64,000 nt of DNA. It comes from Halanaerobium kushneri. GTDB lineage: Bacteria > Bacillota > Halanaerobiia > Halanaerobiales > Halanaerobiaceae. Each line of letters starts with the position of its first letter. The stretch's first letter is position 1. Shown in pieces: positions 10,393 through 18,376 of the stretch. The position numbers and the translations under genes are program-made. Location of the stretch: contig NZ_FTNC01000009.1 of the NCBI RefSeq assembly GCF_900156285.1, forward strand, positions 58,620-122,619. The letters are read 5' to 3'. The notes beneath the pieces were generated by a model, which saw only the letters and a program-made list of their open reading frames with translations, ran no database searches and was not told where the DNA came from.

Positions 10393-12372
10393 ATGTACAG
10401 TATTTACAGTGGCAATACGGGTAGTGGTAAAACTTCAAAACTGAAAACTGACTACCAAAGGCTGGCAGCTGAACAGGGTAGTGAAAAGATACTCTTGTTT
10501 TTAAATTCTGCCCGTTCCGTCAGTCAGTTTAGAGAAGAATTAGATATAGAAATGATGGGAAATTTAAATATCTATACTTATTTTGGCTTTGTCAATCAGC
10601 AGTTAAATAAGAACTGGCCTGCTGTAGAGCGAAAATACAGTGGCTCCAATCAACTGATAGAGCCAACATTTATGAATATTGAAACATCTCATTTTTTAAT
10701 GAGTAATTATGTGGCAAAATATAGAAAAGATAGATCATATTTTCGGAGTATTAAGGCCAGACCTGTTCAGATTGCAGTTCAGTTAATTGATAATTTGAAT
10801 TTGGCTGCTTTCAACATGCTTGGTTTTAAGGAGCTTAAGCAGAGAATGCTAGGTTGGACTCAGAATGATGAAGAACGTAGAAAATATGCAGAACAGTCTT
10901 TAGAGATTATGAAGACTTTTAGAAATTTTTCGCTTACTTATCGGCTCTTTGATTATTCCGCAGCTGTAAGTTTGTTTAACAAATATCTGCTGGCTGATCC
11001 TGATTATCTCAGTAATTTAAAAAAACAATATAATTATTTATTGGTAGATGATTTAGAAAAAATGATTCCAGCCGGGCAAGAATTGATAAAGTCATTGATT
11101 GAATCTCAGATTAAAGGTATCTTTACTTTTAATGAGAGTGGGGGTTTTAATCGTTTTTTTGGGGGTAATCCTGCTGCGGCCAAAAAGCGTTTTTTTAAAG
11201 CGGAAGCAGAAATAATTGAAATTAATAAAAACTACACTGCCTCAGAAGCGAGCAGTGATTTAGCTGCAGAAATAAAAAAAGTAATTAAAGAAAGAAAGTC
11301 CAATTTAGTACAGTCTTCACTCCTCTTGGAAGAAATTGATAGTGAGTTAAGAGGTGAAATGCTGATTAAAGTTGGGAAAAAGATTATTTCACTTCTAAAA
11401 AAAGGAGTCAAAGCTGATCAAATAGCGGTTATTTCTCCTAAAATTGACAAAGTACTGAGCTTTAGTTTGCAGCAGATTTTAGAAAAAAATGGTTATCGAT
11501 TGAGTAATTTTAACCGTTCTAAACGACTAATTGATATTCCTTTTGCACGAGCTCTATTAATTTTATATTTATTTCACTGTGAGAGAACTAATATAGTTGG
11601 CGTTTCTTCGCTGCAGCAGGCACTGTCGCTGCTTTTAGAATTGGATCCCCTGCGTTCATATATTCTGGCTGAGGAAATTGCTGCTTCCGGTATGAAATTG
11701 ATAGACCTTGACCAGAGTGGGTTGAGAGAAAAGATAAACTTCCAATCTGCTGAAAAGTATGATTATCTAAAAGACTGGCTGCAGGATAAAAAAGAGGAAG
11801 AGCTGGAAATTGAAGATTTTTTTCAGCTGGTTTTTAGTGAAGTTCTGGCCCCTTTAGATCCTTCCCAGGAAGATATTTTTGCCTGCAGACAGATGATCGA
11901 ATCAGTTGCCCGTTTCCATCAGGCAGTAGAAAATTTTCATCAGCATAAAAATGATCTAAGTGAACGTTATATTAAGATGATTTATGAGGGAACTCTGGCC
12001 GCAGAGACTCTATTTAAAGGTCAGGAAAAAGAAGCCGGAGTTATTTTGGCTTCACCCTATAAATTTTTATTTTCACCTGAACTGGCTGGAGTTGACTATC
12101 TATTTTTACTTGATATTTCCAGTAGTGACTGGCTGCAGAGTATTGCTAAAGAACTTGTTAATCCCTATATTTATACTGAACAGTGGCAGCAGATTGATAA
12201 TTGGAATGACAGTCTAGATCAAAAGATAAGGTTAAATCAGCTCAGTGATTTTTTAATCAGTTTAATTTATAAAGTTAAAAAAGGAATTTATATAGCAGAT
12301 AGTTTTCTAAACAGCAGTGGTAAAGAACAGGAAGGACCACTTTATCGCTGGCTTGATGTGAGAGGAGAGTAA
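10393..12372 (+). CDS. AddB-like ATPase/helicase-fold protein without nuclease domain
   Basis: A 659-residue P-loop protein. The Walker A motif GNTGSGKTSKL is at residues 7-17, right at the N-terminus as in AddB. A Walker-B-like LLVDDLEKM lies near residue 217, and a motif-V-like stretch (AGVDYLFLLDISSSDW) near residue 565. The other UvrD helicase motifs are weak, and the C-terminal nuclease/Fe-S part of real AddB is absent. Two bases separate it from a canonical UvrD-type helicase, followed directly by a nuclease gene that carries exactly the missing domain. I infer it is the AddB-like subunit of a three-part end-resection enzyme. AAAGGAGA precedes the ATG. Confidence 0.7.
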   Translation: MYSIYSGNTGSGKTSKLKTDYQRLAAEQGSEKILLFLNSARSVSQFREELDIEMMGNLNIYTYFGFVNQQLNKNWPAVERKYSGSNQLIEPTFMNIETSHFLMSNYVAKYRKDRSYFRSIKARPVQIAVQLIDNLNLAAFNMLGFKELKQRMLGWTQNDEERRKYAEQSLEIMKTFRNFSLTYRLFDYSAAVSLFNKYLLADPDYLSNLKKQYNYLLVDDLEKMIPAGQELIKSLIESQIKGIFTFNESGGFNRFFGGNPAAAKKRFFKAEAEIIEINKNYTASEASSDLAAEIKKVIKERKSNLVQSSLLLEEIDSELRGEMLIKVGKKIISLLKKGVKADQIAVISPKIDKVLSFSLQQILEKNGYRLSNFNRSKRLIDIPFARALLILYLFHCERTNIVGVSSLQQALSLLLELDPLRSYILAEEIAASGMKLIDLDQSGLREKINFQSAEKYDYLKDWLQDKKEEELEIEDFFQLVFSEVLAPLDPSQEDIFACRQMIESVARFHQAVENFHQHKNDLSERYIKMIYEGTLAAETLFKGQEKEAGVILASPYKFLFSPELAGVDYLFLLDISSSDWLQSIAKELVNPYIYTEQWQQIDNWNDSLDQKIRLNQLSDFLISLIYKVKKGIYIADSFLNSSGKEQEGPLYRWLDVRGE

Positions 12373-12374
12373 GA

Positions 12375-14585
12375 ATGGAGTTTAAACCCAGACCAGGACA
12401 GAAAGAAGTACTAGAATATCGAGGTGGAGAGCTTGCTGTACCTGCAGTTCCAGGAGCAGGGAAGACAACAGTTCTTGCTCATCTGGCAGCAGAATTGATT
12501 GCCTCTGAGTTAAATAATAACCAAAAAATATTAATTGTAACTTATATGAATTCAGCAGTGGCAAATTTTCGCAGAAGAATTGGCGATTTTTTAGCCAGCA
12601 AAGGACTTCCCCGCAGCCGGGGTTATAGTGTTAAAACCCTGCATTCTCTGGCGCTGGGGATTATTAAAGAAAAGCCAGAAGCCAGGCTGATCAATCAAGA
12701 ATTTGAATTAATTGAAGCCGGAAGGCGCTACCGCTGGATAAAAGATCTATGCCGCAAATGGGCCGGAGAAAATGGAGAGCTGCTGCAGCAGTTTTTTAAT
12801 TTAGAAAAAAACAGCTATCAATTTGATAAATATTTAAAAAAATGGAAAGAAGATGATTTTCCAGCCTATGTTGCGTCTATGATTTCTTATTTCAAATTAA
12901 AGCTGCTGGAAGGTGACGAGCTTAAAAATATGGTTAAATATTCAAATCTTAAATCAGCCAATATTTTATATCCTGCAGCAGAGATATTTGCCGAATATGA
13001 ATTTCGTATGGCTCAAGCTGGTTTATTAGATTTTGATGATCTTGTTCAGCAGAGTTTGAAATTACTGAAAGAAGATCCTGAGTTTACAGAACGAATTGCT
13101 TCTCAGTATGCATTTGTTTTTGAAGATGAAGCTCAGGATTCCAATCAGGCTCAGGAAGAGATGCTTTATCTGCTGGCTGGGGAAAACAATAATTTAGTAA
13201 GAGTTGGAGACAGCAATCAGGCGATTACAGGTACTTTTACTCTTTCAGATCCTGATATTTTTCGCAGCTACTGTAAAAGAGAAGATGTTGATGTAGAGAC
13301 TATGGCGGTTTCCAGCCGAAGCAGTCAGGATATTATAGACCTGGCAAATTATCTGGTTGACTGGAGCCAAAAAGAATTTGCTGAAAGAGAAATTGAGCCT
13401 CTGGAAAAAAAATATATTCAGCCGACTGTTAAGGATGACCCGGCTCCCAACCCCGACCCCGAAGGTTATAGAATTGGAAGCAGAGCTTTTAAAGATTGGA
13501 AGACAGAAAAGAAATTTATTGCCAGACAGGCTCTGCGTAAGGCAGGGGAAAATAACAATAACACTACAGCTGTACTGATGCCGACCGGCTGGCAGCTGGA
13601 AGAAATAGCAGGAGAGATTAAGAAACTTGGAGGAGAATTTCAGCTCGCCGGGAGCAGTTCAAGTGATGCCTTTTTAACAGAACTGGAAGTTATTTTAAAG
13701 TTTTTAACTTCACCTGCTTCTGCAGATAATTTAAAGCTTGTTTTTGCTGAAGTTTTTGCTAAAGAAAAGCCAAAATTAAATCAGCTGCTGGAAGCTGCAC
13801 TGGCAGAAAGAGAGAATCAGGAGTTGATATTCCCTCTCTCGGGTTTAAATCGTGATAATTTTGAGTCTGAATTTAGAAAAAGAGATAAATTTGATGACTT
13901 TTTTAAAGCCCTGACTCGAACTCAGGGATGGCTTGAGGCTTCAATGGATCTGCCGCCTGATGAACTTATTTTATTTCTGGCTGAAAGAATTGAATTGACC
14001 GGAAAAAAACTGGCGCTGGCCCAAAACCTGGCATTAGAATTTGGCAGACTTTTAAATGAAAATCCAGCCTGGAGGCTGGACCAATTAACAGCAGAGCTGC
14101 CTGAAATTAGAGATCGGCTGCGGCAGTTTGCTGAAACTTTAACTGAAATGGAAGGCTTTGAGGCCAAACCTGATCAGGTAACACTTTCCACCCTTCACAA
14201 AGCTAAGGGTATGGAGTGGGATACAGTTTTTATTGGTAGTTTAACTTCAAGCCATTTTCAGCATGATAATGATGATTATTTTATGGGTGAAAAGTTTTAT
14301 TTGAATGAAGAAATAAAAAACCCCAAAGCTTCGGCAAGAGCAGAATTAGAATATATTTTAAATGAAAAAAAGGAAAGAAATGCTGATTATAAGGCCCGGC
14401 AGGAGTTAATTGCAGAAAGAGTGCGTTTGCTCTATGTTGGAATTACCCGGGCCCGGAAAAACTTGTTTTTGAGCACCCATCAAAAAAAGGGCAAATGGGA
14501 TAAAGATCCTGCTTTTATGTTTATCTCTTTAGATAATTTTATCAAGGAGATAGTAAAGAAATATCAGGCAGAGGAGGCAGATTAG
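12375..14585 (+). CDS. UvrD/AddA-like superfamily 1 DNA helicase
   Basis: A 736-residue helicase with a complete motif set: motif I VPGAGKTT (residues about 26-33), motif II FEDEAQD (about 250), motif III VGDSNQAITGTF, motif V LSTLHKAKGMEWDTVFI (about 600), and motif VI LLYVGITRARKNL near the C-terminus. It should be an active 3'-5' translocase. It lacks the RecB-type nuclease domain found at the C-terminus of AddA. It lies between an AddB-like ATPase gene and a separate nuclease gene with almost no spacing, so the three are one translational unit. AGGAG lies 7 bases before the ATG. It is distinct from pcrA at 30436. Confidence 0.85.
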   Translation: MEFKPRPGQKEVLEYRGGELAVPAVPGAGKTTVLAHLAAELIASELNNNQKILIVTYMNSAVANFRRRIGDFLASKGLPRSRGYSVKTLHSLALGIIKEKPEARLINQEFELIEAGRRYRWIKDLCRKWAGENGELLQQFFNLEKNSYQFDKYLKKWKEDDFPAYVASMISYFKLKLLEGDELKNMVKYSNLKSANILYPAAEIFAEYEFRMAQAGLLDFDDLVQQSLKLLKEDPEFTERIASQYAFVFEDEAQDSNQAQEEMLYLLAGENNNLVRVGDSNQAITGTFTLSDPDIFRSYCKREDVDVETMAVSSRSSQDIIDLANYLVDWSQKEFAEREIEPLEKKYIQPTVKDDPAPNPDPEGYRIGSRAFKDWKTEKKFIARQALRKAGENNNNTTAVLMPTGWQLEEIAGEIKKLGGEFQLAGSSSSDAFLTELEVILKFLTSPASADNLKLVFAEVFAKEKPKLNQLLEAALAERENQELIFPLSGLNRDNFESEFRKRDKFDDFFKALTRTQGWLEASMDLPPDELILFLAERIELTGKKLALAQNLALEFGRLLNENPAWRLDQLTAELPEIRDRLRQFAETLTEMEGFEAKPDQVTLSTLHKAKGMEWDTVFIGSLTSSHFQHDNDDYFMGEKFYLNEEIKNPKASARAELEYILNEKKERNADYKARQELIAERVRLLYVGITRARKNLFLSTHQKKGKWDKDPAFMFISLDNFIKEIVKKYQAEEAD

Positions 14586-15383
14586 ATGGGAGTAAACAGC
14601 TTAAAAGATTTATATTTTTCTCAATCGGCCCTCTCTATCTTTAATAACTGCCGTCGTCGTTTTCGCTACCGCTATCTGGATGGTCTTTACTGGCCGGCTG
14701 AATGGGGAATGAAAGAAGAGGTAAAAAATGATTTAAAACAGGGAAGACAGTTTCACCTGCTGGCAGAAAGATATTACAGTCAGAGCCTGGGGGAAACCGT
14801 ACTTGATTCAGCTGATTTGCTGGCCGCCTGGTTCAATAGGTTAAAATCATTTTCGCCAGCAGAGAATGTAGTAGCTGCAGAGCAGGAACTTCGCTACAGG
14901 CAGGATAATTTAAAACTTCTGGCTAAATATGATCTATTAAAATATAATTCAGAAGCGAAAAAATTTATAATCTATGATTGGAAAACAGATAAAAAAAGCC
15001 TTTATCAAAAAGATGTTGAAAGCTCAATGCAGAGCCGTTTTTATTTATATCTTTTATATGAAGCTGGTTATGATTATTTTGCTGACGATTATAATCTCAA
15101 AGAAATGCCGGAACTTATTTACTGGAACCCCCGTTATCCAGATCAGCGGGTGAGAATCAATTATACTTCAGCGGATTTTGAGCAGGATAGAGAATATTTT
15201 AAGCAGCTGATCACTGAAATTTTAAATGAAAAAGATTTTCCCCTTACAGATGATTTAAATAAATGCAGATTTTGTGAGTACAGGCCAATCTGCAGAGATA
15301 AAAAAACGGAAGCCAGAGAAGTTATAGAAGATGATTTAGATTTGAATCTTGACTGGGAAGCGGTTGAAGAAATAGAATTTTAA
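14586..15383 (+). CDS. PD-(D/E)XK nuclease with AddB-like Fe-S cysteines
   Basis: A 265-residue RecB-family nuclease. Conserved residues are His57, Asp116 (KYDLLKY) and the Asp131-Trp-Lys133 of YDWKTDK, giving the H...D...DxK metal site. Cys22 (NNCRRRF) with Cys227, Cys230 and Cys236 (CRFCEYRPIC) has the spacing of the [4Fe-4S] cluster of AddB and Cas4-like nucleases. The ATG directly follows the stop codon of the helicase gene. Known AddAB carries this module at the C-terminus of AddB; here it is a stand-alone protein. Cas4 is an alternative family match, but no CRISPR genes are present. Confidence 0.82.
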   Translation: MGVNSLKDLYFSQSALSIFNNCRRRFRYRYLDGLYWPAEWGMKEEVKNDLKQGRQFHLLAERYYSQSLGETVLDSADLLAAWFNRLKSFSPAENVVAAEQELRYRQDNLKLLAKYDLLKYNSEAKKFIIYDWKTDKKSLYQKDVESSMQSRFYLYLLYEAGYDYFADDYNLKEMPELIYWNPRYPDQRVRINYTSADFEQDREYFKQLITEILNEKDFPLTDDLNKCRFCEYRPICRDKKTEAREVIEDDLDLNLDWEAVEEIEF

Positions 15384-15477: not shown

Positions 15478-16056
15478 ATGTTTGAATACGAAGATGAGTA
15501 TCAGCTCCGCTACATTTATCACACCAATCAACACAACAATGCATATCTGGTTGAACTTAATTTAGATAATTATGATGATCTGTTTAACAGCTGGGATGGC
15601 TCAGCTCTTGATCGAAAAGAGCTTGATCCAGAATTGAGTCATTTTTTAGAAAGAGCAAGCTATGAGCTGCCCTTAAAGGAAAAAGTGGAGCTCTGCTTTT
15701 ATCTGCCAGAAGACAAACAGGACGAGGGAGTAGAGGCAGACTCCAGAGCGACAATAAAAAATAATTTTAGAATGAATTTATTTTTTATTGATCAGGATTT
15801 AAAAAATAATAACAAAAAAATTATGACCTATATTGTAATGGGCCTTTTATTTTTAATTACAGCCTATTTAATTCCAGAAAATAAAGACCTGTCACTTCTG
15901 ATTTCCCTGCTGATGGAAGGACTATTTGTAGGAGGCTGGGTTTTTCTCTGGGAAGCCTTTTCAATATTCTTTTTCGGCAGCCGTGAATTAAAAGAAAAGA
16001 AAAAAAGATATTTGCGCTATCTAAATTCAGATATAGTATTTAAATATAGAGAGTGA
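15478..16056 (+). CDS. conserved membrane protein of unknown function
   Basis: A 192-residue protein that I cannot assign a function. The N-terminal half (about 115 residues) is soluble and acidic and contains FNSWDGSALDRKELDPELSHFL. Two hydrophobic segments follow (about 120-138 and 141-166), and the C-terminus is basic and cytosolic (RELKEKKKRYLRYL). The pattern recalls an uncharacterised clostridial family. A ribosome site just before the ATG at 15478 is not obvious; the nearest CTGGAG is 28 bases away, and a stop codon six bases upstream excludes an earlier start. It sits between the AddAB-like genes and recJ. Confidence 0.72.
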   Translation: MFEYEDEYQLRYIYHTNQHNNAYLVELNLDNYDDLFNSWDGSALDRKELDPELSHFLERASYELPLKEKVELCFYLPEDKQDEGVEADSRATIKNNFRMNLFFIDQDLKNNNKKIMTYIVMGLLFLITAYLIPENKDLSLLISLLMEGLFVGGWVFLWEAFSIFFFGSRELKEKKKRYLRYLNSDIVFKYRE

Positions 16057-16069
16057 GTGGATTTGAGCT

Positions 16070-18376
16070 ATGCAGATTAAAAAAGCAGAAGTATTTGAAC
16101 CAGCTGAGGAATTAGTTGAATATCTTGAAAATAAACAGCTTGCCCGACTGGCTCAGAAGCGGGGGCTGAATTCAAAGGCTGAGTTAATAGAATTTATAGA
16201 ACCAGCTGCTTATTCCCAGCTTGAATTAAGAGACTTTCCTCAGATTATGGAAATTGCAGATTTTATTATAGAACATATTAAAGCAAATAATAAAATTTTA
16301 ATTTATGGGGACTATGATGTTGATGGAATAACTTCTACTTCAATTCTAGTTGGAGCGCTAAGCCGCCTTTCTGATCAGATAAGCTATCACATCCCTGATC
16401 GTTTTAAAGAGGGTTATGGTCTCAATAAAGAAGTACTGGCTTCATACCAGGATCAAATTGATCTGGTTATCAGCTGTGATTGTGGTATCAGTAATTATGA
16501 GGAAGTGAAATTTGCCAGAGAACTCGGAATGGATTTTGTCGTCACTGATCATCATGATCTGCCTGATGAATTACCTCCAGCAGATTATGTAATTTCCCCC
16601 CGGCTGCTGCCTGAAGATCATCAGGGATACTGGCTGCCAGGAGCGGGGATGGCCTATTTTTTAATAAAAGCAATTTATGAGCGGCTTGAGATGAATGGAG
16701 CTGAGAAAGATTATTTGGATTTATTATTACTTGCCATTATAGCTGATGTAGTTCCCCTAAAAGGAGAAAATCGTTACTTATTTAAAACCGGTCTAAAAAG
16801 ATTGAAAAATACAGATAGAATTGGGCTTAAGGCTCTTTACAATGAACTTGATATAAATCCTCTAACGATAAATGAAAAGACTCTGGGATTTCAGATTGGA
16901 CCCTTGTTAAATTCAGCTGGTAGAATTGACAGTGCTGAAAAGGGATTAAAATTACTTCTGGCAGATGATAAAAAGCAGGCAGCCGGACTGGCCGCGGAAT
17001 TATATCAAATTAACCAGCATCGAAAAGAAATAAGCCAGAAAATTTATCTGGAAGCAGAGAAGAAAATCGAAAGCGGCCAGCGGCAGGGAATTGTTGCTTA
17101 TGATTCCAGCTGGCATCAGGGAGTTATTGGGATAGCAGCAGGAAGAATTACTGAGAACTATCAGGTACCGGCAGTTTTAATGACTTCAAATCAGCAGAGT
17201 GAATTGATAACCGGCTCTGCCCGCTCGATTGAAGGCGTAAATATTAATAATTTGATCGGGAAGTGTTCTGATCTTTTAGAAAAACACGGGGGTCATGCAG
17301 CAGCAGCGGGTTTCTCATTAAAGAAAGACAGATTGGAAAAATTCCGTTTAAGACTGCAGCGTCTGATTGATCAAAAATTAACAGAGATTGATTCTGAGCT
17401 AAAAATTGAGACAGATTTGAATCTGAAGCTGGAAGAAATAAATGATGATTTTTATCAGGGACTGCGACTTTTTGCTCCCTTTGGCGAAGCCAATCCAGAG
17501 CCTCTTTTTTATCTGGAAAGCAAAGTCTTAAGCAGTCGTGAAATATCGGCTGGTAAACATAAAAAACTTATTTTCGGTGATCAGGATAAAAAAATCACAG
17601 CACTCTGGTGGTGGGCGGGAGAACTGGAAAGCAACTTTTTGCAGCAGACTGCCTGCAGATTAACTGAGAATATTTATCAGGGTAATAAAAGCCTGCAGCT
17701 TGAAATAAAAGCACTTGCACCACTAAAAGATGTCGCTAAAAAAGTTAAAAAAGGAAAAAATGAAAAAAGACTGCTTAAAGTAATTGACTGGCGCCAGAAA
17801 AAAATTTCAGAACTTGAAGCTGGTGCAGAAAACACGGTTTACTTTGCTGAGGGTCTGCAGGAATATCAACTTTATCCCTTAATAAATCGAAATTATTTTA
17901 AAAAGGCTGATAAATTAGTTTTGCTCACCATTCCTCCTTCACTACCTGTCTTAAAAGAAATTATACTTTTAAGTAACTGTCAAAAATTAATTTTAGTTAA
18001 GAGCAGAGAAGAGAGTTTAGTTTTTAATAAATTCATCCAAAAATTACTTTCGCTGCTTAAATTCAGCCTGAAGCAGGAGAACGGAATTTTTAATCTGGAG
18101 CGGGCTGCACTGGCCCTTTCAGCAGAGGAGATAGCTGTTAAGAGAGCTTTAGAGTTTATTCGGGCTAAGGGAATAATTAGCTTTGAATATATCAGTTATC
18201 AGGAACTTTTAATTACAAAAGATGGTTCCAGAGATCAGGGAAAAGCTAATTTAAGCAGGCAAAATTTAAAGAAATTACTAAATGAAAGTTCAGCCTTTAG
18301 ATCTTTTCTTAAAAATCAGGAAATAGAAAAAATTGAAGATCTTTTAAATAGGAGTCTGGCCTCAGCCAGATATTAA
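16070..18376 (+). CDS. recJ: single-stranded-DNA-specific exonuclease RecJ
   Basis: A 5'-3' single-strand exonuclease for recombination and mismatch repair. The DHH-family motifs are intact: motif I YGDYDVDGITS (residues about 83-93), CDCGISN, motif III VVTDHHDLP (about 157), and the DHHA1 motif GGHAAAAGFSL (about 407). An OB-fold follows. At 768 residues it is the long Firmicute form with an extra C-terminal region that is poorly conserved. The ATG is nine bases after GAGTGG. It lies 13 bases after the preceding membrane protein gene, so it is probably in the same transcript as the AddAB-like set. Confidence 0.95.
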   Translation: MQIKKAEVFEPAEELVEYLENKQLARLAQKRGLNSKAELIEFIEPAAYSQLELRDFPQIMEIADFIIEHIKANNKILIYGDYDVDGITSTSILVGALSRLSDQISYHIPDRFKEGYGLNKEVLASYQDQIDLVISCDCGISNYEEVKFARELGMDFVVTDHHDLPDELPPADYVISPRLLPEDHQGYWLPGAGMAYFLIKAIYERLEMNGAEKDYLDLLLLAIIADVVPLKGENRYLFKTGLKRLKNTDRIGLKALYNELDINPLTINEKTLGFQIGPLLNSAGRIDSAEKGLKLLLADDKKQAAGLAAELYQINQHRKEISQKIYLEAEKKIESGQRQGIVAYDSSWHQGVIGIAAGRITENYQVPAVLMTSNQQSELITGSARSIEGVNINNLIGKCSDLLEKHGGHAAAAGFSLKKDRLEKFRLRLQRLIDQKLTEIDSELKIETDLNLKLEEINDDFYQGLRLFAPFGEANPEPLFYLESKVLSSREISAGKHKKLIFGDQDKKITALWWWAGELESNFLQQTACRLTENIYQGNKSLQLEIKALAPLKDVAKKVKKGKNEKRLLKVIDWRQKKISELEAGAENTVYFAEGLQEYQLYPLINRNYFKKADKLVLLTIPPSLPVLKEIILLSNCQKLILVKSREESLVFNKFIQKLLSLLKFSLKQENGIFNLERAALALSAEEIAVKRALEFIRAKGIISFEYISYQELLITKDGSRDQGKANLSRQNLKKLLNESSAFRSFLKNQEIEKIEDLLNRSLASARY

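Follow-up and report, generated by a model that had tools for sequence, protein, structure and literature searches.

To our knowledge, bacteria have three forms of end-processing enzyme, in which nucleases are fused to motors. AddAB carries nuclease domains fused to both of its subunits. A 2017 survey noted operons, mainly of Clostridiales, that contain UvrD and Cas4-like genes as separate, unfused genes, and suggested a repair role for them (PMC5704561). In Synechococcus elongatus, loss of uvrD, of a cas4-like nuclease gene or of recJcy each raises the establishment of plasmid RSF1010 and natural transformation (PMC10653904). Here we analysed a window of 64,000 nucleotides from Halanaerobium kushneri in which three adjacent genes, termed A, B and C, are followed by a recJ gene, recJ2. 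No published description of the four-gene A-B-C-RecJ2 unit was found in the open-licence literature. We consider it rather probable that the unit codes for an AddAB-like ATP-dependent helicase-nuclease in split form, together with its dedicated RecJ, acting in end resection or in the degradation of foreign DNA. If true, the split form with its dedicated RecJ would be another build of end-processing enzyme, RecJ could be a committed subunit, and end processing in some lineages that lack AddAB would be accounted for.

The predicted proteins share with the AddAB of Bacillus an AddB-like helicase half without active motifs, an AddA-type helicase and an AddB-type Fe-S PD-(D/E)XK nuclease. They differ from it in that the nuclease is a protein of its own, the AddA nuclease is absent and a dedicated RecJ is linked. 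An ATP-dependent UvrD-family motor with a RecB-family nuclease is also found in AdnAB and RecBCD, but both of these fuse the nuclease to the motor, whereas here the two are unfused and the operon has no RecD- or RecC-type gene. The RecQ/RecJ resection of the RecF pathway likewise combines a 3'-5' helicase with the RecJ 5'-3' exonuclease; here, in contrast, the helicase is of the UvrD/AddA type, it is joined by a degenerate partner and by an additional Fe-S nuclease, and the RecJ is a system-specific paralogue. The survey's operon resembles the locus in its adjacent UvrD and Cas4-like genes, but its text mentions neither RecJ nor an A-type protein (PMC5704561). The S. elongatus set is alike by protein type, having a UvrD beside PcrA, a Cas4-like nuclease and a RecJ paralogue beside the housekeeping RecJ, but is known from genetics only and was not reported to include an A homologue (PMC10653904).

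Layout of the locus and its predicted proteins

Genes A, B and C follow one another at spacings of 2 bases (A to B) and 0 bases (B to C), and both these spacings and the ORF positions were exact in the preliminary description (Table 1). The recJ placed downstream by that description is present, but in this species an additional ORF of 192 aa intervenes. Since this ORF is present in only part of Halanaerobium, the membrane protein that it is predicted to encode is probably outside the conserved unit.

Table 1. Features of the A-B-C-recJ2 locus, in positions of the window
Feature	Position	Strand	Description
gene A	10393..12372	+	659 aa, predicted SF1-like, AddB/UvrD-related ATP-binding subunit, without nuclease domain
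gene B	12375..14585	+	736 aa, predicted UvrD/AddA-type SF1A 3'-5' helicase, without nuclease domain
gene C	14586..15383	+	265 aa, predicted stand-alone RecB/AddB/Cas4-type PD-(D/E)XK nuclease with 4-Cys Fe-S ligands
192-aa predicted membrane protein	15478..16056	+	between C and recJ2; no Pfam match
RecJ2	16070..18376	+	768 aa, DHH/DHHA1/RecJ_OB plus C-terminal extension; second, operon-specific RecJ

Protein A had been read as AddB-like, with an N-terminal Walker A and no nuclease part. The Walker A motif, GNTGSGKT, occupies residues 7-14, which leaves no space for a Q motif. It starts at residue 7-11 in most A homologues, compared to 24-27 in B, and its Lys is kept in 37 of 38 homologues. The sole Pfam match of A was to the UvrD N-terminal domain (1.2e-7), with no nuclease domain, so that both the early Walker A and the missing nuclease part stand. 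At the motif II-like VDDLE, the position of the catalytic Glu is D or N in 36/38 homologues and Glu in 2/38. Canonical motif VI is absent and the later helicase motifs are lost, yet A retains its full length and has many invariant residues. The N-terminal Walker A and degenerate later motifs resemble AddB; in contrast to AddB, A ends without a nuclease, and the Fe-S nuclease is encoded separately by gene C.

Profile-profile comparison revealed that A is colinear with the helicase-like half of AddB (A 1-575 against AddB 2-597; probability 98.5%, E 1.7e-15). The match to B/UvrD was nearly as good (97.9%, 4.8e-13), and A did not align with this genome's own divergent AddB (0.4%). The AddB-like reading is thus upheld as one of layout, and probably of role, rather than as proven descent from AddB. 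A is 92% identical to its counterpart in Halanaerobium saccharolyticum, a species to which this genome is close. Structure prediction of A and C from near-identical rows gave unusable models (pLDDT 34 and 38).

B matched UvrD_N (2e-44) and UvrD_C (1.3e-22) and no nuclease domain, as expected of the full UvrD/AddA-type helicase without its nuclease that had been claimed; AddA, in contrast, carries a fused C-terminal nuclease. Thirteen of the 14 SF1A key residues examined are invariant in all 35 homologues, the exception being R66, which is kept in 26. C matched PDDEXK_1 (3.4e-30). All the residues on which its description as a stand-alone PD-(D/E)XK nuclease with Fe-S cysteines was based are present: H57, D116, K133 and the cysteines C22, C227, C230 and C236 are each invariant in 34/34 homologues, and D131 is kept in 33. 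The expected relation to AddA and AddB was borne out in profile-profile comparison, in which the helicase of AddA was matched by B (100%, 4.8e-49) and the nuclease of AddB by C (96.6%, 4.9e-10).

Residues 248-265 of C form a conserved acidic tail with the consensus D-W-[ED]-x-[IV]-E-E-[IM]-x-F. In this genome C ends in DWEAVEEIEF, and the Trp of the tail is kept in 33/34 homologues. The tail bears some resemblance to the C-terminal tip of SSB, which in this genome ends in DDFDVPF. In other bacteria the SSB tip recruits RecJ. Mimicry of the SSB tip by the tail of C is speculation from the sequence, since some C homologues run beyond the terminal Phe or are without it.

Distribution of the trio and its relation to AddAB

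Within the order Halanaerobiales, 25 of the 38 genomes carry A. Among 299 genomes sampled from the phylum, 19 have full-length A and exactly those 19 have C; the other A and C matches in the 299-genome lists were short, weak and located within other UvrD or nuclease proteins. Synteny of A-B-C was observed in Halanaerobiales and in 15 further genomes scattered among other Bacillota. Wherever the contig permits, the three genes are contiguous and in the same order, and they mostly overlap or abut. Loss of synteny in relatives, which would have counted against the preliminary description, was not seen wherever contigs permit, with the exception of Ilyobacter. The large plasmid pILYOP01 of Ilyobacter polytropus carries an A homologue with no B or C beside it (L132 8001-9974). 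A complete contiguous A-B-C-recJ is present on the 56-kb plasmid pSR56 of Salinibacter ruber M8 (L133), which belongs to another phylum. There an XRE-family regulator and a hypothetical gene lie upstream of it. The A-B-C pattern is far beyond chance.

Replacement of AddAB by the trio had been proposed as one possibility. This is ruled out for this genome, since it has a complete AddB-AddA pair on another contig, contig 24. This AddB has 876 aa and a C-terminal PDDEXK_1 domain with Fe-S cysteines, and this AddA has 1066 aa, with a Walker A and, at its C-terminal end, a nuclease stretch. An AddAB pair is present in most trio genomes. In two near-complete (99%) sister genomes that carry the trio, G041 and G088, no AddAB was detectable: the only PDDEXK_1 match above the cut-off was C, and no UvrD-family ORF of AddA size was found. 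G157, G126 and G314 show the same pattern at lower completeness. The trio therefore coexists with AddAB in H. kushneri, whereas at least one lineage has the trio by itself. Some Halanaerobiales (G014:C5, G007:C217 and G024:C2) have a further AddAB-like pair of ~883-1001 and 1071-1089 aa, which looks distinct from the common AddAB.

RecJ2 as the fourth gene of the unit

The preliminary description counted three genes in the unit. The A-B-C block stands, but a dedicated second RecJ had been missed. RecJ2 scored 502 bits against a TIGR00644 cut-off of 396.9, and its catalytic motifs are intact and invariant. Another recJ is located on contig 21 of this genome, making the trio-linked gene a second copy. 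Most of 24 trio genomes have two recJ copies, compared to one in each of six trio-negative relatives. In G220, G244 and G144 the trio-linked RecJ was the sole RecJ found. In quick trees built without bootstraps, all trio-linked RecJs, the RecJ of the Salinibacter plasmid and a RecJ encoded apart from the trio in the trio-bearing genome G082 formed one clade (SH-aLRT 100), separate from the housekeeping RecJs encoded in the same genomes. RecJs of E. coli, Bacteroidota, Fusobacteriota, Thermodesulfobacteriota and other Bacillota all fell outside this clade. The downstream gene did not group with the RecJs of trio-negative relatives (SH-aLRT 100), which rules out that it is the housekeeping recJ. 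Given the second recJ in trio genomes and the separate clade, RecJ2 is part of the conserved unit, which thus comprises four genes, A-B-C-RecJ2. In a mirror-tree comparison of distance correlations, A-RecJ2 (0.893) and A-RecJ1 (0.902) were similar, and RecJ2 was not singled out.

Proposed mechanism and alternative readings

The 5' strand is the one on which the Fe-S nucleases of AddB and Dna2 act; RecJ degrades DNA 5'-3', and UvrD-family motors travel 3'-5'. In the split machine that we favour, B would be the single active 3'-5' motor. A would be its degenerate SF1 partner, binding nucleotide but probably not hydrolysing it, and may serve as an AddB/RecC-like scaffold or sensor. C would be the only Fe-S nuclease, similar in type to those of AddB and Dna2, which cut the 5' strand, and RecJ2, as a 5'-3' ssDNA exonuclease, would clear the 5' strand once it is displaced. 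Such a machine is predicted to leave a 3' overhang for RecA. Removal of foreign DNA could draw on the same chemistry. The machine would have no second nuclease of the AddA/RecB type for the 3' strand, on which Chi-controlled switching depends. Lacking an AddA-type nuclease, it is predicted neither to digest the 3' strand nor to have a Chi switch like that of AddAB. Synteny suggests that the proteins form a complex, and we infer the polarity, the division of labour and the repair role. A repair role is favoured by the flanking genes, which are variable and mostly housekeeping in the ten flanks examined, where a single Mrr-type nuclease and a single IS605-type transposase also occur. The complete AddAB of most trio genomes, however, leaves no obvious gap in end resection for the unit to fill.

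A patchy distribution (19/299) and one plasmid-borne copy count against the split resection machine and also fit defence. Taken with the S. elongatus phenotypes, they make the elimination of foreign DNA a serious alternative, possible in our view although on the unlikely side. Instead of repairing the chromosome, the four proteins would then break down plasmid or transforming DNA that enters the cell, or else DNA at plasmid forks that have stalled. B, C and RecJ2 are the same three protein types as the products of uvrD, cas4-like and recJcy in S. elongatus (PMC10653904), and the Salinibacter unit itself resides on a plasmid. On the other hand, the unit is vertically inherited in Halanaerobiales among mostly housekeeping neighbours, and no trio was found in the phage records or viral contigs searched, which gives no sign of a phage or viral origin. 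An Argonaute search gave no match in 35 genomes, but the S. elongatus control was likewise unmatched, which shows this search to be insensitive. If the proposed machine is real, the A-B-C-RecJ2 operon would be a ready-made test case for the unexplained plasmid resistance conferred by the UvrD, Cas4-like and RecJ-paralogue genes of cyanobacteria.

A stronger form of the split-machine reading is doubtful. It holds that the unit is an obligate four-subunit enzyme and a distinct, ancient class that ranks alongside RecBCD, AddAB and AdnAB. RecJ would be built in, perhaps through the acidic tail of C, and the enzyme would resect or destroy foreign and broken DNA, would be shared with the cyanobacterial UvrD/Cas4-like/RecJcy set and could take over from AddAB.

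It is improbable that the locus merely groups repair enzymes that act independently and form no complex, namely a spare UvrD, a Cas4-like nuclease working solo and a spare RecJ, with A a degenerate UvrD of no special role. The closeness of A to UvrD/B, the unlinked RecJ2-clade gene of G082 and the solitary A of the Ilyobacter plasmid fit this, but three observations do not: distant genomes, and another phylum, have the genes either all together or not at all, the genes overlap or abut, and full-length A has many invariant residues.

Several named systems do not fit the locus. There is no GajA-like domain (an OLD ATPase with TOPRIM) among the neighbours, as Gabija would have, and B matches GajB models as any UvrD-family protein would. 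A UvrD-Cas4 fusion defence protein does not fit separate genes whose neighbours are mostly housekeeping rather than restriction-modification, and the same flanks, together with generic PADLOC matches, exclude membership of a defence island. C is not a Cas4, as it scored 32.7 bits against a cas4 model cut-off of 65 and is not adjacent to cas1 or cas2. A separate CRISPR system on contig 29 (L006 1001-1591) has a Cas4-like gene of its own beside cas2-, cas1- and cas3-like genes.
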